Part shown: piece by piece, positions 1,193-55,953 of the stretch
How the letters are laid out: each line of letters opens with the position of its first letter
Numbering within the stretch: position 1 is the first letter of the stretch
Origin: Terriglobia bacterium
GTDB taxonomy: Bacteria; Acidobacteriota; Terriglobia; Terriglobales; Acidobacteriaceae
NCBI GenBank assembly: GCA_020073385.1
Contig: JAIQFH010000009.1
Span: 1 to 64,000, forward strand
DNA: 64,000 nt
Direction of reading: 5' to 3'
The notes under the pieces: model-generated
Database searches by the model: none
What the model was told of the DNA's origin: nothing
What the model saw: only the letters and a program-made list of their open reading frames with translations
Position numbers and translations under genes: made by a program

Positions 1193-3712
1193 TTACTCAA
1201 ACCGCAACGCTGACATCGGATCGACCCTCGTCGCTTTTCTCGCTGGCACCCAGACCGCTACGAATGCCACGGCGCACAAGAAGATGGGCGTCAGAATAAA
1301 TGCCATCGGATCCCATGTCTTTACTCCAAACAAGAATCCCGTCAAAAACTTCGTCAGCCAGAATGCTCCGCCAATCCCGATGACGAGCCCAATCCCCGCC
1401 AGCAGCATTCCCTGGCGAATCACCATATTGCGAATATTAGAAGCCTGCGCTCCCAGTGCCATTCTCACGCCCAGTTCCTGTGTCCGCTGCTGTACCGAGT
1501 AAGCCATTAATCCATAGATGCCGATCGCCGCCATCAATAAAGCCGAAGCGCCGAAGGACGTGAGCAGCAGCATGTTGAAGCGTTCGCGCGATGTCGTGAG
1601 CACGACAATCTCATCCATACTGCGAATGTGCGCCACCGGCAGCCCGCCAGTAGCTTCGCGGATCGCGTTGGTCACGGCGGCCGTGAGTGTGTGGGGCTCC
1701 ATCCGCGTACGCACAATCCACTCCAGTGGCGCGATGCGCGAGTTAAGCTCCGTCACTTTGTCGGGCATCTGCGCAACCGGGATGTACATCGTCGGACCCG
1801 GGTCCTGATTCAGTCCGCCATCCCGCGTATCTCCTACAACGCCGATCACCTGCCGCGGTGGTTCGACAAAGACAGGCCCCATGCCCGCTCCAATCTCGAC
1901 GCGGTCGTTCAGCGGATCGCCCTTGGGCCAGAACTGTCGCGCCATCGCCTCGTTGATGATGACCACACCCGGCGCTGATCCGTTGTCCTGTTCGGTGAAA
2001 TTGCGCCCGCGGACAACCGGCACCTTGAATACATCAAAATAGCTCCATGAGACCGGGAAGTATCCCGCTCCGCCGGTATTGGGATTGTTGCCGTTCGCCC
2101 GCCCCACAATGTTGAACGGCAGCCCAAAGCCACCTTGCAGCGGCAGACAGCATGCGGCGGCAGCAGCCGTCACACCGGGAACCGCATTGAGCCGCTCGGT
2201 GCCGTCGTGAATGACCTGCGCCACACCGCTGGTCTTCAGAAACCGGTCGCCGCTGATCGACATGGCCATGGTGAGCACGTTGTGCGTGTCAAAGCCAGGA
2301 TCGACCGCCTGCAGCTTCATAAACGTGCGAATGAGCAGTGCCGCCCCGATGACCAGCACCAGAGCAAGAGCCATCTCACTGATCACCAGAACAGAACGCA
2401 CCTTGCCGCTGCGGAAGCCCACTCCAGCCCGGTTGCTGCTCTCGTTCAAAACTGCCGCAAGATTCTTACGGGAGGCGCTGATTGCAGGCATCAATCCAAA
2501 CAAAATTCCCGTCAGCAGCGAAACCCCAAGCGTAAACAAAAGCACATTCAAGTCGACCTTGACCGCCGATCCATCTTCGCCAATGCGCGGGATGCTCCCG
2601 GGATTGATGGCGAGCAACAACCGAACCCCAGCGAATCCCAGAATGAGTCCAAGCACTCCGCCGGCGAGCGATACCACCAGACTCTCCGTAAGCAACTGAC
2701 GAATGATGTGCCAGCGTCCAGCGCCAAGCGCAGAGCGCGTAGCGATCTCTCGTTTGCGCGCCGTGGCGCGAATCAGCAGCAGATTCGCAACATTGGCACA
2801 GGCAATCAACAGCACAAGTCCCACGGTCCCCAGCAACACATAAAGGGACGACCGCGCATCGCGGACCATCAATTCCTGCAACAAAATCACGCCGAAGCCG
2901 CCGTTTGGCCCCAGGGTCCCGGGATACGTCGTACGATACTGATCGGCGGCGAGCTTCAATTGCGCGTTGGCCATCGGCACAGTCACGCCCGGCTTCAACC
3001 GCGCCATCACGCCGAAGTAGTGCGCCTGGTCTTGCGAACTGAGTTCAAACTGAAAGGGCAGCCAGAGATCGGCCGGATTATCCGTAACAAAATCGCGCCC
3101 GATCACGCCCACCACCTGATACGCCTGTCCGTTAAGCTGAATATTGTTACCAACGACGCCCCGGTCTCCGCCAAATCGCCGCTTCCACAGACCGTAACTC
3201 AGCACCGCGAAATTTCCGCCGTGTGGGCTATCTTCCGCCGCGGTAAAAGTCCGACCGGCAATCACGGGCGCGCCTAGGACCGAAAAATAGTCGGCACTTA
3301 CATGCACGCCCTGCACCTGTTCCGGCTGATCGTTGCCGGTGAGGTTCAATCCGGCGCCGCCGCTGTCGTAGGCCGCAACTTGCTGAAAAATCCCCGTCTG
3401 CTGCCGCCAGATATTGAACTTGGGCACATTCGCGCCGGGAAAAGAACCTTGATCGCCGGTGTTCATCAGGTGCACCAGCGACTGTGGATCCGGATAAGTA
3501 AGCGGCTTGAGCAGAACGGTATTAATGACGGAGAAGACTGCGGTATTCGCGCCGATCCCAACCGCAATCACAAGAATCGCGACCACCGTGAATCCGGGCG
3601 CCTTCCGCAGCGATCGCACAGCAAAGAGAATGTCGCGCCAGATATATTCAGCGGACACAAACGAAGAGCCGACCAACACGCTCTGTCCGTTACCAGGCCT
3701 GTGCTGATTCAT
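1193..3712 (-). CDS. ADOP-family MacB/FtsX-like ABC permease
   Basis: The 839-residue protein has the layout of the acidobacterial duplicated orphan permeases: an N-terminal membrane helix (VVAILVIAVGIGANTAVFSVIN, about 40-62), a MacB-type periplasmic core, an FtsX block (LLIACANVANLLLIRATARKREIATRSALGAG, about 300-330), a second periplasmic core, and a second FtsX block near 715-830 with QQRTQELGVRMALGAQ. These proteins usually lack an adjacent ATPase, and none is encoded here. Substrate and partner are unknown; MacB relatives export peptides, lipids or drugs across the inner membrane. The start is supported by AGGAGG six bases upstream of the ATG. The gene is monocistronic, bracketed by family D repeats. 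Confidence 0.9.
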   Translation of the reverse strand: MNQHRPGNGQSVLVGSSFVSAEYIWRDILFAVRSLRKAPGFTVVAILVIAVGIGANTAVFSVINTVLLKPLTYPDPQSLVHLMNTGDQGSFPGANVPKFNIWRQQTGIFQQVAAYDSGGAGLNLTGNDQPEQVQGVHVSADYFSVLGAPVIAGRTFTAAEDSPHGGNFAVLSYGLWKRRFGGDRGVVGNNIQLNGQAYQVVGVIGRDFVTDNPADLWLPFQFELSSQDQAHYFGVMARLKPGVTVPMANAQLKLAADQYRTTYPGTLGPNGGFGVILLQELMVRDARSSLYVLLGTVGLVLLIACANVANLLLIRATARKREIATRSALGAGRWHIIRQLLTESLVVSLAGGVLGLILGFAGVRLLLAINPGSIPRIGEDGSAVKVDLNVLLFTLGVSLLTGILFGLMPAISASRKNLAAVLNESSNRAGVGFRSGKVRSVLVISEMALALVLVIGAALLIRTFMKLQAVDPGFDTHNVLTMAMSISGDRFLKTSGVAQVIHDGTERLNAVPGVTAAAAACCLPLQGGFGLPFNIVGRANGNNPNTGGAGYFPVSWSYFDVFKVPVVRGRNFTEQDNGSAPGVVIINEAMARQFWPKGDPLNDRVEIGAGMGPVFVEPPRQVIGVVGDTRDGGLNQDPGPTMYIPVAQMPDKVTELNSRIAPLEWIVRTRMEPHTLTAAVTNAIREATGGLPVAHIRSMDEIVVLTTSRERFNMLLLTSFGASALLMAAIGIYGLMAYSVQQRTQELGVRMALGAQASNIRNMVIRQGMLLAGIGLVIGIGGAFWLTKFLTGFLFGVKTWDPMAFILTPIFLCAVAFVAVWVPARKATRVDPMSALRFE

Positions 3713-4082: not shown

Positions 4083-4724
4083 ATGGCGAACATCATCGCG
4101 AGCGATAGCATCCAATCCCCCCAAGCCATCTACAACGCGAACAATTACGCCAGTGAGCGGAACTGTCCGTGGGTACAGATCGGGAACCTGTTCGTGTCCT
4201 TGACATTCACTGGGAACAAGTCCTGGAAACCGGTGGTAGAACACGAGCACGAGATGGGTTACCGCGAGTTCACCATTTTGTCAGGCAGGCATGGCGACCA
4301 ATATGGGCAACTCGTTCAGTTCAGCACCGGAGAGTTTGGTCCCGGCGTAGCCGAACCGACGCACTACACTCAGGACCTTGCTGAAAAAGACGATTTGGAC
4401 GAACGCCTGGACGATTTACACCTTCAGGTGATCGATGTCGGCCGTCCGCCATACAACACGTTGAAAGCTCTGAAGGCTCTTGCGCTGGCCGAACTCAGTG
4501 CGCGGCGCACAGTTATTTTTGCCTGGTGCTTTTCCATCTTCAGCATGATGGAACATCCCGAGAATCCCTACTTGCCCGTTCCCGACAAAGTCCTCCAGTC
4601 GTATATGCTGCGGGCATTCAATACGCCTGTGGCAGCGCTGGTAAAAGAGGGCTTCTCCTGGGTCCCCACGAAAAAGTGGCCAACCGTGCCGTCAGTTGCA
4701 GGTGCATTTCGCTCCGCCGGGTAG
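4083..4724 (+). CDS. Hypothetical protein, unrecognised
   Basis: A 213-residue protein with no family I recognise. It has no signal peptide or long membrane helix. The middle is acidic (LAEKDDLDERLDDLHLQ) and it contains one hydrophobic patch (VIFAWCFSIFSMM) followed by a proline-rich stretch. The start at 4083 (MANIIASDS) is preferred over an in-frame start at 4023 because GGAG lies nine bases upstream. Repeats flank the gene on both sides, and the next plus-strand gene (5461) is also unrecognised. The two share no visible sequence, so a joint role is only suggested by position. Confidence 0.65.
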   Translation: MANIIASDSIQSPQAIYNANNYASERNCPWVQIGNLFVSLTFTGNKSWKPVVEHEHEMGYREFTILSGRHGDQYGQLVQFSTGEFGPGVAEPTHYTQDLAEKDDLDERLDDLHLQVIDVGRPPYNTLKALKALALAELSARRTVIFAWCFSIFSMMEHPENPYLPVPDKVLQSYMLRAFNTPVAALVKEGFSWVPTKKWPTVPSVAGAFRSAG

Positions 4725-4758
4725 TGCGGTTCTACTGCATCGTCCAAACGACGGTGTG

Positions 4759-4865
4759 GAAGGTGGCCCACACAACGCGATGTTCGTTGTGTGGGTAACT
4801 GGAAGGATTCTTCACCGAGTTATTCCGACGTTGGCTCGACCATTCCTCTACATCCCGACTCAAGC
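4759..4865. repeat. 105-nt direct repeat, copy 1, with hairpin
   Basis: It begins GAAGGTGGCCCACACAACGC. The arms CCCACACAAC and GTTGTGTGGG form a ten-pair stem around GCGATGTTC, followed by GTAACTGGAAGGATTCTTCA and a conserved tail TATTCCGACGTTGGC. Copy 2 at 5162-5265 keeps the same order and length. Confidence 0.85.
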
Positions 4866-4920
4866 CACCAGCCTCGGGTGACTCGTGAAGCTTGCCCAGG
4901 ACAACTGCCGCCAACCGTAC

Positions 4921-4951
4921 CGTGGAAGAGCGGCGCTTCAGCGTCGCGTAA
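4921..4951 (-). repeat. Family A repeat, reversed variant
   Basis: Read on the minus strand it ends GCCGCTCTTCCACG like the other family A copies, but the stem is GACGCTGAAGCG rather than GGCCCTGAAGGGCC. Confidence 0.6.
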
Positions 4952-5024
4952 GATCCCGATAGCGACTGCGGCTTCAGCCGCTGAGGGCTAACGCCTCGTG
5001 TCCTCAGAGAAAACCTGTAACCGC

Positions 5025-5065
5025 GGTGGCCCACTCAAGCCCGGGTTTGGCTTGAGTGGGACTCT
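5025..5065. repeat. Family D hairpin, copy 4
   Basis: GGTGGCCCACTCAAGCC and GGCTTGAGTGGG flank CGGGTTT, and CTCTTCG follows. The arms are identical to copy 1. Confidence 0.85.
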
Positions 5066-5161
5066 TCGAGAGCGCCGGGCGTGTGCCCCTTCCTTTCGCA
5101 CTCGTTGTGCGCGCCGGAGTGTAAAGAATGTCTGGAGATAATGTGTGAAGGATGTCATGCA

Positions 5162-5265
5162 GAAGGTGGCCCACACGACGCGATGTTCGTCGTGTGGGTA
5201 ACTGGAAAGATTCTTCACACAGCTATTCCGACGTTGGCCTACCAACCCTCTACGTCCGACTCAAG
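5162..5265. repeat. 105-nt direct repeat, copy 2, with covarying stem
   Basis: The sequence matches 4759-4865 along its length. In the hairpin the A-T pair of copy 1 is a G-C pair (CCCACACGAC with GTCGTGTGGG), so both arms changed together. The downstream TATTCCGACGTTGGC tail is kept. Confidence 0.85.
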
Positions 5266-5460
5266 CGGAGAGCCAGCTGTTGTTGACAAGTGAACGTTAG
5301 TTAGCGTGAATTGACTCATATCCGATTGAGGTGTATTGTTCTGGCCGCATCAGGGCTGACTAGGGCCAGTTAGGGAAACAACGGCATTGTGCGATTTTTG
5401 CGATAGGACATCATTATTGTGCGTCGAAGGCCGCATTCGACGGCACTATTGGAGTGGCCG

Positions 5461-6405
5461 ATGGGGATCGTAGTGGATTTGGCCAATTCGGACGCTCATT
5501 TTGAAGCTCCGACGATACTCACCAGTAGCGATCTCGGCTTCAACCAGTTTGTATATGACATGCCATCATGGGCAGTAAGCTTCGCTATAAAGTTTGATCC
5601 AGACCCGAACAAGGGCATTGGAGGAGCACCCCAGGATTCGGAGCTTTGGGAGATCGGAATCGTACAGAATCTCCTCTTCGAGAGAATACTTTTTGAATAC
5701 TCGGGGGTTCCTGTTTTCAGCACCGAGTTCACCGCCCCGACCGTTGACATCCTGGATAACTCGTTCGACCGTCCGTTCTATTCGAGCCCCGAACTCGGTC
5801 CAAACAGGCGAAAGACACGGGCGGTTACGCACATTTGGTACTCTTCGCAAGGCTATGGCGAATTACTCGATCCTTCCAGTACCAGTGGAGTGCGGGTGAA
5901 TAATATGCCGAACTTGCTGGACATGTGGGATCAGCCATCGGGAGGAGTCCTCCTGCGAAGAAATGGGTCACTGCTCAACCGCGTAGAGAAAGTGCTCTGC
6001 TTTCAGACTTGGCTTGTCGCCAGAAAAAAGGGCCTGTTCTCGCTCCCAGCCGGCTCGAGTCAAATTAAAGCTTTGCGGGACGCATTCATTCCAGCACTGC
6101 TGCGACCCGCCGTGCAGAGCACGATTGTGCTCGCCCACGTTCCAGCCTTCACACTTACGTTCTGGCTCACTATCACCGGGCCAGGCAAAGGCTTTGTACC
6201 AACTCCAACTTTTGACTATGGGGTTTATGGCGAAAACGGCTTTCTCCCCAAAAAGCGAATAAACCATGCCTTCCAGACCATCATGGGGCCCTTGCCCTCG
6301 GTGAGTGCCAATTTGGGCGATGGCGGCAGGTTTCCAATCACGATAGGGCGAGCCTCCGCCGAACAGGCAAGAAACTGGCTTAGCGTAAACGGTCTGGCCG
6401 CTTAA
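5461..6405 (+). CDS. Hypothetical protein, unrecognised
   Basis: A 314-residue protein with no recognised domain. It has no signal peptide, and the hydrophobic stretches (AFTLTFWLTITG near 240) are too short and mixed for a firm membrane call. Composition is rich in Pro, Gly and aromatic residues, which suggests a beta-rich fold. The start at 5461 (MGIVVDLANSD) has TGGAG eight bases upstream. A GTG at 5419 would add 14 residues. It is the last gene before the 225-nt recurrent element at 6449. It and the 4083 gene are the two unrecognised genes of this repeat-rich stretch. Confidence 0.65.
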   Translation: MGIVVDLANSDAHFEAPTILTSSDLGFNQFVYDMPSWAVSFAIKFDPDPNKGIGGAPQDSELWEIGIVQNLLFERILFEYSGVPVFSTEFTAPTVDILDNSFDRPFYSSPELGPNRRKTRAVTHIWYSSQGYGELLDPSSTSGVRVNNMPNLLDMWDQPSGGVLLRRNGSLLNRVEKVLCFQTWLVARKKGLFSLPAGSSQIKALRDAFIPALLRPAVQSTIVLAHVPAFTLTFWLTITGPGKGFVPTPTFDYGVYGENGFLPKKRINHAFQTIMGPLPSVSANLGDGGRFPITIGRASAEQARNWLSVNGLAA

Positions 6406-6448
6406 TTCCACCATCTTTGCAACGAACGCATACACTTTTCCACACCCC

Positions 6449-6673
6449 GATGTGACATCTGACCTTGCGCTCCACAATCGAAATCCGCCATCATCATGGA
6501 GGCAGCAACAATGCGCGGAAGTCGCACTCCGTCCCGATTTGGGACAGCGTCAGCGATGCGCAGCCTGCAAGTTCTTTGACATCAAGATTTTGCCCGCAAG
6601 TGATTGTGCCGCAAGATTTTATTTTGCGATTCCCCACAATTCGATGATTCCAATACATCAGGGGGGAGGGGGG
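6449..6673 (+). repeat. Recurrent 225-nt element, copy 1
   Basis: It shares ordered conserved blocks with 28371-28594: a GATGTGACATCTGACCTTGC block at the left end, a GTCCCG...TTTGG block, AAGTTCTTTGA at offset 120, AAGATTTTGCC, TTTGCGATT, TCGATGATTCCA, and a G-rich tail. Between blocks the sequence has diverged but the length has not. One frame reads KFFDIKILPASDC and SMIP in this copy, so a decayed short reading frame is possible. It may also be a structured non-coding element. It fills most of the 345-bp gap before the dihydropyrimidinase 3' end. Confidence 0.7.
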
Positions 6674-6750
6674 ATACCCTCACGCGCCGTTCAGTTCCCT
6701 TTTCGGGAATTTCACGCCACGATAATTTCTTCGCGGCCGCTGCCTTGACC

Positions 6751-8148
6751 TCACCCGTTCACCTGAGCGTAGGTCGCGCGTCGCAAGAATTCCCCCTGTC
6801 CCGCTCGCCCTAGGAATTTGTCCCCATCGACCACGACCTTGCCCCGCGATAAGACGACGTCTGGCATTCCCGTAACCTGAATGCCCTCGAACATCGAGTA
6901 GTCGACGCGCATGTGGTGCGTTTTAGCGCTGATCGTGTGCTTTCGTCTGGGGTCGAAGATCACCAGGTCCGCATCGCTTCCGACGGCGATAGTCCCTTTG
7001 CGCGGATAGAGTCCAAACAGTTTCGCCGGCGCGGTTGCAACCAATTCCACAAAGCGGTTCGCGCTGAATCGTCCACTCGCAACGCCTCCGGAATAGATCA
7101 AGCTCATGCGGTGCTCGACACCAGGACCGCCATTGGGAATTTTGGTGAAGTCGTCGCGGCCCATTTCTTTCTGCTCTTTGAAACAGAATGGGCAATGATC
7201 GGTGGAAACTACCTGCAGGTGATCGCACTTCAAGCCATTCCATAGTTTCTCCTGATGCCATTTCTCGCGCAGCGGAGGCGTGAACACATACTTCGCTCCT
7301 TCGAAACCTGGCGCATCGAAGTTCTCAATCGACAGATACAGATACTGAGGACACGTCTCGGCATAAACTGGAAGCCCGCGGTCGCGGGCCTCGCGAACTT
7401 TCTCGAGAGCATCGTTGCAGCTCAGGTGCACGATATAGATCGGAGCCCCAGCCATCTCCGCGAGTGCAATAGCGCGAGCAGTAGCCTCGGCCTCTGCAGT
7501 CGTCGGGCGAGTGAGTGCGTGATATTTCGGCGCCCTCTTCCCTTCTGCGAGCGCCTGCTGCACGATCACATCGATCGCGCTTCCATTCTCGGCGTGCATG
7601 CAGACCATTCCGCCATTCTTCGCCGTGGTCTGCAGCGCTTTGAAGATGCTGCCATCGTCGAGCATAAAAACTCCGGGATAAGCCATGAACAGCTTGAAGC
7701 TGGTCACGCCTTCGTGAACCAGATCGTTCATCTCCGCGAGCTGCCCGCCGGAAACGTCCGTCACAATGCAGTGAAATGCATAATCGCAGACTGCCTTGTT
7801 GGAGGCTTTGCTCATCCATGTGTCGAAAGCCTGGCGCAAGGGCTGACCTTTGTATTGAATGGCGAAGTCGATCAGCGTGGTCGTGCCACCGAAGGCCGCG
7901 GCTCGCGTGCCCGTTTCGAAATCATCAGCGCTGGTCGTGCCTCCAAACGGCATGTCGAGGTGCGTGTGTACGTCAATGCCTCCAGGCAGCAAGAGCTTGC
8001 CACCCGCATCCAACACGTGAGAGGAGTTTTGCGTTGGCAGATCTTTGCCGATGGCGGCGATCTTTCCATTGGCGATGGCAATGTCTGCCGGATACGTATC
8101 GGTTGCGGTCACGACGGAACCATTTCGAATGATCGTGTCGAAGCTCAT
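6751..8148 (-). CDS. Dihydropyrimidinase / hydantoinase
   Basis: A 465-residue amidohydrolase that opens the ring of dihydrouracil, dihydrothymine or a hydantoin to give an N-carbamoyl amino acid. Metal ligands are visible: the HTH pair H61 and H63 (GIDVHTHLD), the carboxylated lysine K152 (TSFKLFMAYPG), H185 (MHAENG), H241 (IVHLSC) and the Asp of STDHCPF. Length is normal for the family. Translation starts at the ATG at 8148 with GGAGG five bases upstream; the TTG just before it is not needed. The neighbours are a luciferase-like oxidoreductase transcribed divergently, an NCS1 permease and a beta-ureidopropionase-like amidase, which together fit reductive pyrimidine degradation. Preference for hydantoin over dihydrouracil cannot be decided from sequence. 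Confidence 0.95.
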   Translation of the reverse strand: MSFDTIIRNGSVVTATDTYPADIAIANGKIAAIGKDLPTQNSSHVLDAGGKLLLPGGIDVHTHLDMPFGGTTSADDFETGTRAAAFGGTTTLIDFAIQYKGQPLRQAFDTWMSKASNKAVCDYAFHCIVTDVSGGQLAEMNDLVHEGVTSFKLFMAYPGVFMLDDGSIFKALQTTAKNGGMVCMHAENGSAIDVIVQQALAEGKRAPKYHALTRPTTAEAEATARAIALAEMAGAPIYIVHLSCNDALEKVREARDRGLPVYAETCPQYLYLSIENFDAPGFEGAKYVFTPPLREKWHQEKLWNGLKCDHLQVVSTDHCPFCFKEQKEMGRDDFTKIPNGGPGVEHRMSLIYSGGVASGRFSANRFVELVATAPAKLFGLYPRKGTIAVGSDADLVIFDPRRKHTISAKTHHMRVDYSMFEGIQVTGMPDVVLSRGKVVVDGDKFLGRAGQGEFLRRATYAQVNG

Positions 8149-17461: not shown

Positions 17462-18343
17462 CTAATGGCTGACGGGTGCAATGGCTTGCACAATGGCGGT
17501 GACCAGGCCAGGGATGTTGAACTCCCTGGCCGCGATGTCCACCGGAAGGCCTAGTTCGCGGAGCGTGGCGGATGTGACGGGACCAATGGATGCAGTCTTC
17601 ACACCATCGAGCAGCTTTAACTTGCGCCGCGTGCCAAGCAGTTCCACGAAATTCTTCACTGTCGAAGAACTGGTGAAGGTCACTACATTGGGGCGCTGGT
17701 TCGGATTCTTCAGTGCAGCCTGCAGGCGGCGGCGCGAACTTGTGGGGACTACAGTTTCGTAGGCTTCGACGACATCGACGTGAGCTCCGGCTTTGCGCAG
17801 TTCGCGGGGGATCACGTCACGAGCGACTTTGGCACGGACCAACAGAACGCGTTTCCCTTTCACCTTCCCTTTTAAACTGCGAACCACGGATTCGGCGACG
17901 TATTCTTTAGGCATGACGTCGACTTTCAAGCCGCGTTGTTCGATGGCTTTCTTCGTCGCGGGACCGATGGCGGCGACGCGCAAACCACGGGCTAAGACCC
18001 AGGAACTCTTTCTGCGCGAGCGCGGGCCTGAAGGGCCGCTCTTCCACGCTGATTCGGGCCTGGTTGATCTCTGCATCGCCTTTTCGATCCGATTCCACAT
18101 CGCTTCGACACCGTTGACGCTGGTCAGGATCAGCCAGTCGTAGGTCTCGAGATTCTTCAGAGCCGAATCGAGGGCATGAAACGAGCGGGGCTTGCGGATC
18201 TCAATGAAGGGAATTTCGAGCACTTGCGCACCGCGCTTGCGGAGTTCGGCGGAGAGGGATCCGGCTTGATGGCGGGCCCGGCCTACGAGTACGCGCACAC
18301 CTCTTAGCGGCTGGTTCGATGATTTCTTGCGTTTCTTGCTCAT
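17462..18343 (-). CDS. hemD: Uroporphyrinogen-III synthase with repeat-derived insert
   Basis: A 293-residue HemD with two Rossmann-like halves: LRGVRVLVGRAR, LILTSVNGVEAMW, VAAIGPATKKAIEQRGL, VLLVRAKVARDVIPREL, VTFTSSSTVKNFVELL, and SIGPVTSATLRELGLPVDIAA. It cyclises hydroxymethylbilane to uroporphyrinogen III. It is the last gene of the hem cluster. Residues about 90-112, between the MWNRIEKAM helix and LARGLRVAAIGP, are an extra basic segment. Their DNA (18021-18048) is a family A palindromic repeat also found between genes at 25281 and 55925. The ATG at 18343 is used; the GTG at 18379 lies in a small palindrome (GCGGGCAGGACTGCCCGC). Confidence 0.9.
   Translation of the reverse strand: MSKKRKKSSNQPLRGVRVLVGRARHQAGSLSAELRKRGAQVLEIPFIEIRKPRSFHALDSALKNLETYDWLILTSVNGVEAMWNRIEKAMQRSTRPESAWKSGPSGPRSRRKSSWVLARGLRVAAIGPATKKAIEQRGLKVDVMPKEYVAESVVRSLKGKVKGKRVLLVRAKVARDVIPRELRKAGAHVDVVEAYETVVPTSSRRRLQAALKNPNQRPNVVTFTSSSTVKNFVELLGTRRKLKLLDGVKTASIGPVTSATLRELGLPVDIAAREFNIPGLVTAIVQAIAPVSH
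18021..18048. repeat. Family A repeat inside hemD
   Basis: CGCGGGCCTGAAGGGCC followed by GCTCTTCCACG, in frame within hemD. It is identical to the intergenic copy at 25281-25308 except for one base. Confidence 0.85.
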
Positions 18344-19640: not shown

Positions 19641-19670
19641 CCTTCGCCTGCCCTGAGCTTAGCCGAAGGG
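19641..19670 (-). repeat. Family B repeat
   Basis: On the minus strand it reads CCCTTCGGCTAAGCTCAGGG followed by CAGGCGAAGG. The CTCAGGGCAGGC core recurs in mutS (34898-34920) and at 43276-43299. Confidence 0.75.
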
Positions 19671-24000: not shown

Positions 24001-24055
24001 CAAGCCGCTCGGCCTCGCCTTTGCGGGACAGCCGAAGGCGGCTGTTCCCACATGG
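24001..24055. repeat. Family C repeat, complete intergenic copy
   Basis: AAGCCGCTCGGCCTCGCC followed by the hairpin GGGACAGCCG / CGGCTGTTCCC and CACATG. The same two-part layout, with a family B insert in the middle, is found inside mutS at 34879-34954. Shorter hairpin-only copies lie at 33151 and 42371. Confidence 0.85.
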
Positions 24056-25198: not shown

Positions 25199-25280
25199 GG
25201 GGATCTCCGCCAGAAGTTATATCACCAGCGTCAGTGCGATCGGGAGCACTGGGCTAAAGTCCATGTCAAACCGGGTCTAA

Positions 25281-25308
25281 CGCGGCCCTGAAGGGCCGCT
25301 CTTCCACG
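25281..25308. repeat. Family A repeat, intergenic copy
   Basis: CGCGGCCCTGAAGGGCC followed by GCTCTTCCACG, preceded by GGGCTAAAGTCC (25252-25263) and CCGGGTCTAA. The longer unit is repeated at 55892-55953. Confidence 0.85.
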
Positions 25309-34311: not shown

Positions 34312-36987
34312 ATGACCGAGCCGTCCACTCCGCTGATGCGGCAGTATGCTGCCGTCAAGAAAGAACATCCCACTGCGCTTCTGTTCTTCCGCCTGGGAGA
34401 CTTCTACGAACTGTTTTTTGATGACGCGATCGTGGCGTCGAAAGAACTGCAGATCACGCTGACTTCCCGCAACAAAGAAAAAGGAATCGCGGTGCCAATG
34501 TGCGGCGTGCCCTATCACGCGGCGGAGGGGTATATCGGGAAATTGATCCGGCGTGGATTCAAGGTCGCAATCTGCGAGCAGATGGAGGACCCGCGGCTGG
34601 CGAAGAAGTTAGTGCGGCGGGAGGTGACGCGAGTTGTCACGCCGGGGACGGCGGCGGATTCGTCGCTGGGATCTGAAGAGAACAACTTTTTGGCCGCGCT
34701 GGCGCAGGTAGGAGACTGCGTGGGGTTTGCGGCGTTGGATTTGTCGACTGGGGAGTTTCGGGCTACGGAGTTTTCCGGGGAAGGAGCGATGCGGCGGGTG
34801 CAGGAAGAACTGGAGCAACTGCGGCCGAAGGAATTGCTGTTTGGGTCGGCGGCACCTTTGTTCGAGAACGCCGGGGCTAAGCCGCTTGGCTTCGCCCCTT
34901 CGACCGCACTCAGGGCAGGCGTCACGGGAAAGCCGAGCCGGCTGTCGCTACATAGTTTGTCATTCACTGAAACTCCTCTTGAGGATTGGATTTTTTCGCC
35001 CGACCACGCGCTGCCTTTGCTCGAGAATCATTTTGGCGTGTTGTCATTGGAAGGCTTTGGGCTGGCTGGACGAACTGCGGCGGCGGCGGCGGCAGGGGCC
35101 ATCCTTTATTACGTGCGCTCGACGCAGCGGGGGTCGCTGGATCACGTTGACCGTATTGGCTGGTACGAGCGGCAGAACTGCCTGGTGCTCGATGCGGTGA
35201 CCGTGCGCAATCTCGAATTGATCGAACCGCTTTTTGCCGGGACCGATGCGGGTGTGACTCTGTTCCGCTCGATCGACGCGGCCGTAACACCGATGGGAAA
35301 GCGATTGCTTCGGGCCTGGCTGCTGCGGCCGTCACTGGACTTGGCGGAGATCAATGCCCGGCTGGATGCGGTTGAGGCGGGAGTCAAGGACATCATTGCG
35401 CGCGAGGAATTGCGTCGGGCTTTGGATGGTGTACTGGATCTGGAGCGACTGCTGAGCCGCGTCACGCTGGAGACGGCGAATCCGCGGGACGTGCTGGCTC
35501 TGGCCGCGTCGCTGCGGAAGATTCCTGCGATCAAAGGAGCGGTAGCGCGTCTGACGGCGGCGCGGTTGCAGGCGCTGCATAAGGCGCTCGATGAATTGAG
35601 CGATCTCCGCGAGCGCATTGAGAAGACGATTGTGGCAGAGCCGCCGTTGAGTTTTGCCGACGGGGGCGTGATCGCCGCGGGAATCGATGGCGATCTCGAT
35701 GAACTGCGAGAACTCTCGCGCAACAGCAAGGCCGTGCTGGCGCAGATCGAGCAGCGGGAACGCGGGCGGACGGGAATTTCCTCGCTGAAGGTGAAATTTA
35801 ATTCTGTCTTCGGATACTACATCGAGGTATCGAAGGCGAATTTGCATCTGGTGCCGCAGGACTATGACCGGAAGCAGACGCTGGTCGGGGCAGAGCGGTT
35901 TACTACTCCTGAGTTGAAGGGGTATGAAGCGAAGATTCTCGACGCACAGGAGAAGATCGTCGAGATCGAGCGGCGGCTCTTTACCGAGTTGCGGACGGCG
36001 ATTGCGGCGGAGGCAAAGCGGATCCGGCAAACAGCATTGGCACTGGCTGAGGTGGATGTGCTCGGGTCATTAGCGCATGTTGCGGCGCTGCGGAGTTACT
36101 GCCGGCCGCAGTTTGCCGAGAAGTCCGGCGAGTTGGAGATTATCGAGGGCCGGCATCCGGTAATAGAGCAGCAGGAACTTGCCGGTGGTAGTGAGCGGTT
36201 TGTGCCCAATGATCTCTACCTGAATGACACAACTCACAATATTCTGTTGCTGACCGGGCCGAATATGGGTGGTAAGTCGACTTATTTGCGGCAGACCGCG
36301 TTGATTGTCATTCTGGCGCAGATGGGATCGTTTGTTCCGGCGCGGTCGGCGAAGCTCAGTATTGTCGACCGAGTGTTTACCCGCATTGGCGCGAGCGACA
36401 ACCTGGCTCGCGGGCGCTCGACGTTCATGGTCGAGATGACGGAGACAGCGGCGATTCTGCATACGGCGACGGCTCGGTCGCTTATCCTGCTCGATGAGGT
36501 GGGGCGCGGTACCTCAACTTATGATGGACTGGCGATTGCGTGGGCGGCGGTGGAGCATCTGCATGGGCGGGTGCGGGCGAAGACTTTGTTTGCCACGCAT
36601 TATTTCGAGTTGACCGAACTGGCCGAGCAGTTGGAGGGCGTGAAGAATTATCACGTATCAGTAAAGGAGACGGGTGGCGGGATCGTCTTCCTCAGGAAGG
36701 TTGAGCCGGGGGCGGCGGATCGCAGTTATGGAATTGAAGTCGCAAAGCTGGCTGGCTTGCCGAATGAAGTCGTCGAACGGGCGCGCGAGGTACTGGTGCA
36801 GCATGAGTTCGCCGAGCAGCAGGCAACGGCACATCTGTCGCCGGGGGCGAGTCATCCGGCGGCGCAGCTGACGATTTTTACACCCCTCTCGCAGCCGGTG
36901 CTGGAGAAATTGCGGGATGTGGATTTGAATCGGCTGACGCCTCTGGAGGCGCTGAATTTGCTGGCTGAGTTGAAGAAAGAGATCTAA
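34312..36987 (+). CDS. mutS: DNA mismatch repair protein MutS with repeat-derived insert
   Basis: An 891-residue MutS. The mismatch-binding [11 protein letters not shown] segment (Phe-x-Glu) is near residue 30. The Walker [10 protein letters not shown] is at 649-657, followed by [20 protein letters not shown] (Walker B) and the FATHYFEL switch. Residues about 190-214, after the [13 protein letters not shown] strand and before [12 protein letters not shown], are extra. Their DNA (34879-34954) is a family C repeat with a family B core nested in it. The insert keeps the frame, and all catalytic motifs are downstream and intact, so the protein is probably functional. Confidence 0.97.
34879..34954. 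repeat. Composite family C and B repeat inside mutS
   Basis: AAGCCGCTTGGCTTCGCC, then the family B core CCTTCGACCGCACTCAGGGC and AGGC, then AAAGCCGAGCCGGCTGTCGC and TACATA. Without the B core it aligns with the intergenic family C copy at 24001-24055. Confidence 0.82.
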
Positions 36988-37044: not shown

Positions 37045-38124
37045 ATGATTGTCGGGTTCGATGGCACGGAGGTCACGCCGCCGCTTGCTTCTCTGCTGAA
37101 GCGACTGCAGCCGGCCGGCGTCATCCTCTTCGCCCGCAACATCAAGAGTGCTGAGCAGACCTGGCAGCTTTTGCGCGAGTGCCAGAAGTGTGTTGAGTCG
37201 CCGCTGTTTACCTGCATTGATCTTGAAGGCGGAACTGTGGATCGGCTTCGCGATGCGTTGGGGCCTGCTCCTTCGGCGGCAGAGGTGTTTGCCGTGGATG
37301 ATCCCAAGCTGTTTCGCAGGCACGGGCGGATCATCGGAGAGAACTGCCGGGCACTCGGCTTCAATGTCGATTTTGCTCCGGTGCTTGATTTGGCGTTTGA
37401 AACATCGCGACCGGTCATGGGCTCGCGGGTGGTTTCGGCGGATCCGGATGCGAGCGTGGCATATGCGCGCGAGTTTCTTGCTGGGCTGAAGGCCGCGAAG
37501 GTGCTTGGATGCGGCAAGCATTTCCCGGGACTCGGCGAGGGCCAACTGGACAGTCATCATGAATTGCCGGTGATCGAGAAATCGTTGAAGCAGCTCTGGG
37601 CCGAGGATCTCGTTCCTTACAGTGTGCTGCGGCGCCAACTTCCCTTTGTGATGGTGTCTCACGCGGCGTATCCACAAGTCACGAAGACCAGAATTCCGGC
37701 GTCGCTCTCGAAGATATGGATCACCGACATTCTGAAGAAGCGCATCGGATACCGCGGGTTGGTGGTGTCGGACGATCTGGAGATGGGCGGAGTCTTGTCG
37801 GCGGCGCCTGTGGGTGAGGCGGCGGTCGAGTTCATTCGGGCGGGCGGCGATCTGTGCCTGATCTGCCATCGCGAGGATCGCATTCTTGAGGCACATGAGG
37901 CCTTGCTCATAGCGGCCAAGCGTGACAGGAAGTTCGCCACGCGCATGGCGGAATCTTCGCGACGTGTGCTTGGTTTCAAGAGGAAGTGCGGGCCGCTGCT
38001 AAAGCTTGGGAAGGCACCTTCGGCGGCAACGATCGAGAAGTTGACGCGGAACCTCTGGGAATTTGGCGAACAGGTGCGGCTGGGCCCCTTGAGCCGCAGA
38101 GAAGATCGGCGGCGGAGGGGATGA
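37045..38124 (+). CDS. GH3 beta-N-acetylhexosaminidase (NagZ-like)
   Basis: A 359-residue single-domain GH3 enzyme. The NagZ loop reads KHFPGLGEGQLDSHHELP with the D169-S-H171 acid/base dyad; the usual KHFPGHG has Leu for its last His. The nucleophile is D243 in GLVVSDDLEMGG. It should release GlcNAc from muropeptides in the cytoplasm. The frame upstream of the ATG reads LNIGQL, a family-typical N-terminus, but has no ATG, GTG or TTG before a TTG at 37042. The true start may have been lost to the family E half-element. anmK follows with a four-base overlap, so the two form a muropeptide recycling operon. Confidence 0.88.
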   Translation: MIVGFDGTEVTPPLASLLKRLQPAGVILFARNIKSAEQTWQLLRECQKCVESPLFTCIDLEGGTVDRLRDALGPAPSAAEVFAVDDPKLFRRHGRIIGENCRALGFNVDFAPVLDLAFETSRPVMGSRVVSADPDASVAYAREFLAGLKAAKVLGCGKHFPGLGEGQLDSHHELPVIEKSLKQLWAEDLVPYSVLRRQLPFVMVSHAAYPQVTKTRIPASLSKIWITDILKKRIGYRGLVVSDDLEMGGVLSAAPVGEAAVEFIRAGGDLCLICHREDRILEAHEALLIAAKRDRKFATRMAESSRRVLGFKRKCGPLLKLGKAPSAATIEKLTRNLWEFGEQVRLGPLSRREDRRRRG

Positions 38125-39344
38125 GCAAGAACGGAATGATCGTAGCCGGGGTGATGAGTGGGACTTCCGCGGATGGGATCGATGTGGCGCTTGTCCAGAT
38201 CACCAAATCTAAACCGCACGCGCGGGTCGGCCGTGCCCACGCCATCAAGTTTCTTGGTCACATGCAGTTTCCCTATCCTGCAAAAGTTCGTGCCAGCATA
38301 CTCGGCGCGATGAATGCGCGCACCGCTAGCGTCGCCGATCTCGCGCGGCTCAACTTTCTGCTCGGGGAACTGTATGCGGACGCAGTTTTGGACACGCAGC
38401 GGCGATTCCGAGCGCAAGCGGATCTCGTCGGATGCCACGGACAGACTCTCTATCATCAGGGAGAGGCGCAGAGTTTTCTGGGGCACAAGGTAGCGACGAC
38501 CTGGCAGACCGGCGAAGGGGCGATGATTGCGGCGCGAGTGGGAGTGCCGGTGGTGTCGGATTTCCGTCCCGCCGATATGGCGGCGGGGGGCAAGGGTGCA
38601 CCTCTGGTTCCGTTCCTTGATTACATGTGGTTTCGCGATGCACGGGTTGGTCGGATTGTGCAGAACATCGGCGGGATCGCGAATCTGACGGCGATTCCAG
38701 CGGGAGCGCGTCCCGAACATGTTCTTGCGTTCGATACTGGACCTGGGAACATGGTGATCGATGCTGTCACGCAGGAGCTGTTCCGTAAAGCGTTCGATCG
38801 TGATGGGAAGATTGCGGCCTTCGGAGAATTGATAGAGCCCGTACTCAGGCGAATTCTGAGTGGCGCATTCTTCCGGGCGAAACCTCCGAAGACCGCGGGA
38901 CGGGAAGAATTTGGGCGCGAGTTTGTGGTGGAGTTCTTGCGACTCTGTCGCGGAACGCGCAAGCAGGATGTGGTCGCGACGGCGACCGCCTTATCTGCGC
39001 GGTCGATTGCAGATGCCATCCGCCGATTTGTGATTCAAGGAAGACCCACTTCTCCCAAAACCGGGGAGAAGTGGGGCACCCAAAACGGGGCGGGTCTTCG
39101 CGAGATTATTCTTTCTGGTGGCGGGGCGCGGAATGCCACGCTCGTCGGGATGCTTGCGGAACTGCTGGCACCTCTGGGCATTGTGGTGCGGTTCTCGGAC
39201 GAGTTTGGGCTGCCTTCTGACGCGAAGGAAGCGGTGGCGTTTGCAGTGCTGGCTTATGAGACATGGAATCGGCGGACTTCCAATGTGCCGTCGGCTACCG
39301 GGGCGAAACGGGGGGCTGTGTTAGGGAAGATTTCGTATGCGTGA
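38121..39344 (+). CDS. anmK: Anhydro-N-acetylmuramic acid kinase with repeat-derived insert
   Basis: A 407-residue AnmK that phosphorylates and opens 1,6-anhydroMurNAc. Visible are AGVMSGTSADGIDVALVQ, CHGQTLYHQG, PVVSDFRPADMAAGGKGAPLVPFLD, QNIGGIANLT, FDTGPGNMVID, and LSGGGARNATL. The ATG overlaps the nagZ stop and GGAGG lies just before it. Residues 308-324 (within GRPTSPKTGEKWGTQNG) are an extra loop encoded by a family D hairpin in reverse orientation, between IRRFVIQ and LREIILSGGG. The length is otherwise normal. Confidence 0.95.
   Translation: MSKNGMIVAGVMSGTSADGIDVALVQITKSKPHARVGRAHAIKFLGHMQFPYPAKVRASILGAMNARTASVADLARLNFLLGELYADAVLDTQRRFRAQADLVGCHGQTLYHQGEAQSFLGHKVATTWQTGEGAMIAARVGVPVVSDFRPADMAAGGKGAPLVPFLDYMWFRDARVGRIVQNIGGIANLTAIPAGARPEHVLAFDTGPGNMVIDAVTQELFRKAFDRDGKIAAFGELIEPVLRRILSGAFFRAKPPKTAGREEFGREFVVEFLRLCRGTRKQDVVATATALSARSIADAIRRFVIQGRPTSPKTGEKWGTQNGAGLREIILSGGGARNATLVGMLAELLAPLGIVVRFSDEFGLPSDAKEAVAFAVLAYETWNRRTSNVPSATGAKRGAVLGKISYA
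39042..39084 (-). repeat. Family D hairpin inside anmK
   Basis: CCCACTTCTCCC and GGGGAGAAGTGGG form a perfect stem around AAAACC, with GCACCC on the right. The reverse complement begins GGGTGCCCCACTTCT and ends TCTTCC, matching the outer arms and trailing motif of the intergenic copies. Confidence 0.85.
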
Positions 39345-43245: not shown

Positions 43246-43345
43246 ACCGACTTTAGTAAAGTCAAAATCCCCGTCCCTTCGACTTCGCTCAGGGCAGGCT
43301 CTGTCGCACAAAACGCGACAAGAATGGGGCACCCTCAGATTTTCT
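43246..43345 (-). repeat. Composite repeat: family B core within D-like arms
   Basis: On the minus strand it reads GGGTGCCCCATTCTTGTCGC, a small GTCGC/GCGAC stem, GCCTGCCCTGAGCGAAGTCG and AAGG (family B core, 43276-43299), then GGGGATTTTGAC. The outer ends match the 3806-3847 family D variant. Confidence 0.7.
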
Positions 43346-55891: not shown

Positions 55892-55953
55892 GGGGCTAAA
55901 GCCCAATCGAACTACACCGGCTAACGCGGCCCTTAAAGGGCCGCTCTTCCACG
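55892..55953. repeat. Family A repeat, long intergenic copy
   Basis: GGGGCTAAAGCCC, then CCGGCTAACGCGGCCCTTAA and AGGGCCGCTCTTCCACG. It is the fullest copy of the family. Confidence 0.85.

Follow-up and report, generated by a model that had tools for sequence, protein, structure and literature searches.

In the mutS gene of a soil Acidobacteriota genome (8.23-Mb assembly), residues ~190-214 of the protein (190-215 for the DNA at 34879-34954) are encoded by a family B REP, i.e. a palindrome with a GT[AG]G foot, together with a 24-nt element, family C, which is nested in it. The gene lies in the 64,000-nt stretch of DNA analyzed here (C33:1-64000, hereafter referred to as the window). We consider it quite likely that the REP with its nested element fills a loop in the connector domain of MutS, both in open frame, and that it owes its presence there to REP-type transposition or hairpin copying. 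The features of the gene are:

34312..36987 (+), mutS, 891 aa, with MutS domains I-V
34879..34896 (+), first half of family B, AAGCCGCTTGGCTTCGCC, in frame in mutS; 90% over 78 nt to C13:177570-177647
34897..34920 (+), family C, 24 nt, CCTTCGACCGCACTCAGGGCAGGC, nested in B; profile score 15.7 bits
34921..34953 (+), second half of family B, GTCACGGGAAAGCCGAGCCGGCTGTCGCTACAT, with the hairpin AGCCG/CGGCT and the CTAC foot; profile score 24.5 bits at 34919-34954

The preliminary description had taken the DNA for these residues to be a repeat, and this is borne out by the many copies in the genome and by a second full B+C composite on contig C13, the only other one found by the genome search. A B copy similar to that of mutS (0.90 identical) but without C is present at locus L003. 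The foot of the mutS copy reads GTAG on the minus strand (34951-34948) and its stem is partly broken or decayed; the copy had been kept out of the B profile that scored it. The frame is open through the repeat, as had been stated, and the conserved motifs are intact, including the F-x-E motif (F31, E33). The segment had also been described as a composite: B and C are indeed both there, but the arrangement is one of nesting, C inside B, and it recurs elsewhere in the genome.

Family B is a multicopy REP of the GTAG REP superfamily, and inverted B copies enclose one REP-type transposase gene. The genome-wide search with the B core (up to 3 mismatches) yielded 59+50 matches, palindromic double counts included, against 0+2 for the reversed control. 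At up to 2 mismatches, this short imperfect palindrome, with a stem of 8-9 bp as judged by eye, is found at 76 places (counted by hand from the genome listing), of which 75 lay in the fetched DNA and were examined; 68 of these 75 copies exhibit GT[AG]G at the hairpin foot on the other strand (43 GTAG, 25 GTGG). The genome encodes seven Y1_Tnp proteins, five of which match REP-associated tyrosine transposases best and two IS200. Four of the five score above the cut-off, while the fifth, from locus L147, falls just below it (NF047646, E-value 2.4e-22, 79.4 bits, NCBIfam cut-off 80) and is the one bracketed by B:

1327-1827 (-) of L147, transposase ORF, bracketed by inverted B pairs at 1145 (-), 1272 (+), 1837 (-) and 2001 (+)

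Other Y1_Tnp genes have different repeats at their flanks, A-type at L144 and CGTGGAAGAGCGGC-type at L145; C was found at none of the seven loci, apart from one 4-mismatch match in L146. GT[AG]G feet and bracketed transposases of this kind are described in PMC6006769 and PMC3733652.

The remaining repeats of these families in the window are distributed as follows:

19646..19669 (-), C nested in an E-type repeat, aaccacaaagggcac-C-gaaggttcacgaagg; profile and context
24004..24054 (+), B copy; profile score 34.2 bits
33135..33178 (+), B copy upstream of mutS, common to the sister genome G034; profile and G034 comparison
39042..39080 (-), A-type hairpin, in frame inside the ORF 37986-39344 (+); profile score 18.9 bits
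42355..42398 (+), B copy, common to G034; profile and G034 comparison
43276..43299 (+), C nested in an A-type hairpin, whose orthologous hairpin in G034 is without C (empty site); profile and context

The B copy at 24004..24054 confirms the earlier alignment of the mutS segment with a repeat at 24001-24055, and the two C copies agree with the second core placed near 19641 and at 43276; what had been missed is that these two C copies are themselves nested in other repeats. The ORF 37986-39344 presumably encodes an AnmK-like protein, and G034 carries, at the same place in this ORF, an A-type hairpin whose stem differs. A further palindrome family, CGTGGAAGAGCGGC, has copies at 4921-4956, 18021-18048, 25273-25308 and 55926-55953; copies of it border the REP-type transposase gene of L145 as well, and it was seen by eye in the recN loops of L329, L337 and L344.

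Family C could not be told from chance by its 12-nt core alone (6 found at up to 2 mismatches, 7.16 expected), whereas the 22-nt form is clearly in excess (3 found, 0.02 expected), corresponding to the three copies in the window (34897-34920 and 43276-43299 on the plus strand, 19646-19669 on the minus strand). Genome-wide, 41+35 matches with up to 3 mismatches were found, compared with 1+1 for the reversed control, so that the genome search proposed in the preliminary description turned up numerous further copies of both families. For the 74 of these 76 matches that lay in the fetched DNA, the contexts were examined, and C was seen inside B (ggacagcc-C-..ggctgtcc), E (aaccacaaagggcac-C-taagg) and A hairpins (aatccccac-C-tctgtcgc...ggggcaccc). 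Since the folding of the joined flanks is only a weak test of nesting (28 of 74 below the 5% control level), profiles of the host repeats were adopted instead. Once the 24 nt are taken out, 36 of the 74 copies yield a rebuilt host repeat that spans the junction, as opposed to 0 of 222 control removals; the rebuilt hosts are B in 15 cases, E in 10 and A in 11, with a gain in score upon removal in 14, 9 and 11, respectively. The strand of C in its host is always the same for B and for E, and divided 9 to 2 for A. The three host models leave 38 of the 74 copies unexplained. A crude sorting of the hosts by regular expressions placed 48 of the 74 and was not relied on. Pairs of empty and filled sites were identified as well: the recN loops of G017 and G004 (147 and 171 nt) lack and possess C, respectively, and the A hairpin at 43276, which has C in the window and none in G034, differs by 25 nt (hand count). 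In the genome of the window, C is thus often a second-order insertion in B, A and E repeats.

The C core pattern extends beyond the genus: of 297 genomes sampled from the phylum, 43 have it. Nesting was gauged by the presence of a perfect stem of at least 7 across the junction. By this measure the genome of the window shows 21 of 74 copies (control: 6/444), G202 2 of 7 (7 matches; control: 0/42), G180 2 of 12 (25 matches; control: 1/72) and G226, from another family of the phylum, 0 of 11 examined copies (28 matches; control: 0/66). The G226 loci L350-L376 contain C-like 20-mers with no surrounding palindrome, and C may have another life outside the genus. Contigs C20, C23 and C27 of G180 each carry two C copies 46 bases apart, no more than 110 bases from the contig start, and are possibly assembly breaks at a repeat that holds C twice.

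The mutS site is a repeatedly refilled loop rather than the scene of a one-off insertion. We compared 30 mutS genes, 29 of the genus (that of the window included) together with the named L063, taking as the loop what lies between PLF and TETPLDDW, and extracted the loops of purL and recN as well; the first 30 loci per search gave 30/30 mutS, 24/30 purL and 27/30 recN loops, the 9 misses being dropped before counting. The mutS loop varies from 54 to 159 nt. Eight of the 30 are short (54-57 nt) and free of the repeat (L046-L049, L051, L053-L055) and 12 carry B and/or C by profile, so that the orthologue comparison proposed in the earlier description supports its reading. Some of the loops have B in a different frame (SFARPDSRGRLSPHG), L035 has C in a B-like hairpin, L040 has B with C reversed, and L033 has B plus an insertion that resembles an A-type hairpin by eye, with no A match of at least 12 bits there. 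Across species, the mutS loop holds different repeats, in different frames. On a quick mutS tree with 9 open forks, the fewest changes amount to 3 for C and to 6 for the presence of a repeat (a profile match or none), the latter number hinging on the 12-bit threshold.

The profiles, applied at this threshold, rest on 66 copies of B and 63 of C, once the 20 in-gene copies described below had been omitted, and on 7 A copies, the A set without gene screening. Matches of any family were found in 28 of the 81 loops (mutS 12/30, purL 8/24, recN 8/27), B in 18, C in 11 and A in 1, in keeping with the earlier idea that several palindromic families invade proteins. Could a GC-rich variable loop simply resemble the repeats by chance? 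The loop is hypervariable, its structure is predicted with low confidence, and 53 of the 81 loops have no match of at least 12 bits. Nevertheless, the 9.9 kb of loops contain 30 such matches and the remaining 177 kb of the same genes none, which makes chance resemblance barely credible in general, and for the copy in the window it is refuted by the 78-nt match on contig C13. Folding energy is less telling: measured against the rest of the gene, it lies below the 5% level in no more than 9/30 mutS, 9/24 purL and 7/27 recN loops. The purL and recN orthologues follow the same pattern as those of mutS. Four purL loops are as short as 42 nt; reversed B, A-type and GGAAGAGCGGCCCTTCAGGGCCGC repeats were seen by eye, and left unscored, in further purL and recN loops.

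The sister genome G034, whose MutS is 95% identical to that of the window, also has B at the mutS site, yet of another kind. The B of the window's mutS is 0.90 identical to a genomic copy but only 0.78 identical to its counterpart in the sister's mutS (rank 29 of 103), while the latter and the mutS B of another species, G027, are 0.96 identical. The mutS site thus turns over, and since the window's repeat is nearer to copies from its own genome than to the sister's, judging from these identities it has most likely been replaced or converted rather than inherited unchanged. In the lineage of the window, an older mutS REP would have given way to, or been converted to, the GCCGCTTGGCTTCGCC...GCTACAT kind found elsewhere in the genome, with C aboard.

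How did the repeats reach mutS? We infer transposition, in which B would be delivered by REP-type single-strand transposition, or else copying at hairpins, and the inserts would persist where the frame is kept and the landing site is a loop. No target-site rule or duplication was found at the insertions. According to another explanation, which we regard as rather unlikely, the repeats are brought to mutS not by a transposase but by homologous recombination or template switching between hairpins, i.e. by gene conversion among the copies. This would agree with the closer resemblance of the window's mutS B to genomic copies than to orthologous mutS copies, with the presence of B at the mutS site of relatives, as conversion requires, and with the lack of a visible insertion boundary or duplication; it does not, however, explain the first filling of the empty mutS and purL loops, and a REP-type transposase gene bracketed by B does exist. 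A wider picture may tentatively be drawn, though we would not be surprised to see it fail: C could be a 24-nt second-order parasite of palindromic repeats in the genus, entering unrelated REP families at a few preferred points, its length of 8 codons letting it ride REPs through conserved proteins without a frameshift, and the MutS, RecN and PurL loops could serve as landing pads throughout the genus, with peptides that are renewed as one repeat replaces another.

The presence of B and C in genes is not restricted to these loops. A codon-usage score, for which 40 ORFs of the window served as the training set, was applied to 75 B and 74 C copies, and a copy was called in-gene when both flanks had a coding score; 20 of the 149 copies (9 B, 11 C) lie in frame in coding ORFs, in 19 proteins, 11 marginal C copies being excluded from the 20 and retained in the C profile. 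The proteins are MutS, PurL, SelD, a UbiD-type decarboxylase, NrdJ, LipB, an MsbA-like ABC protein, a cysteine desulfurase-like protein, a Dpp5-like peptidase, RecN, WecB, and RNase H-like, HGSNAT-like, M28 peptidase, DsbH-type, FAD oxidase, PIG-L, FtsX/MacB-type and molybdopterin-binding proteins. In our own tally, the element is located within one family match in 10 proteins, between matches in 7 (with a weak neighbor in two, and the second stretch of the molybdopterin protein not displayed) and past the last match in 2 (RNase H-like and PIG-L). The NrdJ-type ribonucleotide reductase (L247, ORF 4450-7557, minus strand) has, by eye, a second B-like peptide, VATDASSVSRGEASG, beside the counted one. 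With ~88% of the DNA coding (estimated from the window), the 20 of 149 copies fall far short of the number expected, a strong deficit that fits the loss of most in-gene insertions. The reading phase is non-random, sense C being in one phase in 6/6 cases and antisense B in 6/7. B is open in 5.07 of 6 frames compared with 4.23 in control DNA, an excess that C does not share (4.99, control 5.03). With B rich in open frames and C 8 codons long, neither needs to break the gene that it enters.

Solved MutS chains (7ou2) align on either side of the segment but not across it, which leaves it in a gap (query 179-226). An AlphaFold2 model, which was built from 27 rows (mean pLDDT 79.7) and matches E. 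coli MutS (1wb9; Z-score 44.8, 720 residues, 3.3 A), has pLDDT below 50 at residues 185-215, between the strands 174-178 and 219-223. Disorder of this loop is suggested at most, as the alignment has 27 rows and four other stretches also fall below 50, three of them exceeding 9 residues (694-703, 782-816, 841-859). From the model, the repeat most likely forms a tolerated floppy loop, and its effect on MutS is most likely neutral. Or perhaps the repeats in mutS and recN alter repair and yield mutator variants, as speculated for other repair genes in PMC3733652? Both genes bear repeats in the genome of the window and in its congeners, and many repair genes are listed in that paper; yet of the 19 proteins with a B or C copy just two, MutS and RecN, have the name of a repair protein, and the insert sits in a low-confidence loop outside the conserved motifs, hence we find an adaptive role very improbable.

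REPs are called 'extragenic', yet about 1 in 7 of the screened copies lies inside a protein gene, and the same loops are refilled genus-wide, with a second, tiny repeat traveling inside the REPs. In mutS, recN and purL, nature offers alleles that are empty, filled or nested. These make it possible to study the choice of sites by REPs, the movement of a 24-nt element that has no gene, and the way in which new protein segments of repair enzymes arise from mobile DNA.

Rickettsia palindromic elements had been named as the precedent. Like the repeats described here, they are palindromes inside many protein genes; they belong to another phylum, and the present case is one of a REP with a bracketed transposase gene. 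A closer precedent is given by the intragenic GTAG REPs of PMC3733652 (where the Rickettsia elements are cited as well), which lie in frame in several repair genes, in two recB genes at about the same site, and share with B the GTAG foot (with a stem of 5-13 bp) and the repeat-flanked transposase genes. The subclass 2.4 REPs inside tnpA-REP genes, described in PMC6006769, likewise keep the frame and have the GT[AG]G foot, but they reside in the transposase's own gene and not in housekeeping genes. The insertion sequences IS1397 and IS621, which target REPs according to PMC1525189, resemble C as a second element landing in a REP, although C is 24 nt long and carries no transposase gene. Among the matches listed, which cover few subscription papers, we recognized no report that places REPs in mutS or a 24-nt repeat inside REPs. 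In-frame REPs, also in repair genes, are known from PMC3733652, in which the word mutS does not occur. Within the literature searched, the recurrent refilling of one loop by several families, genus-wide and in three genes, together with the 24-nt element nested in a REP, seems to be new.
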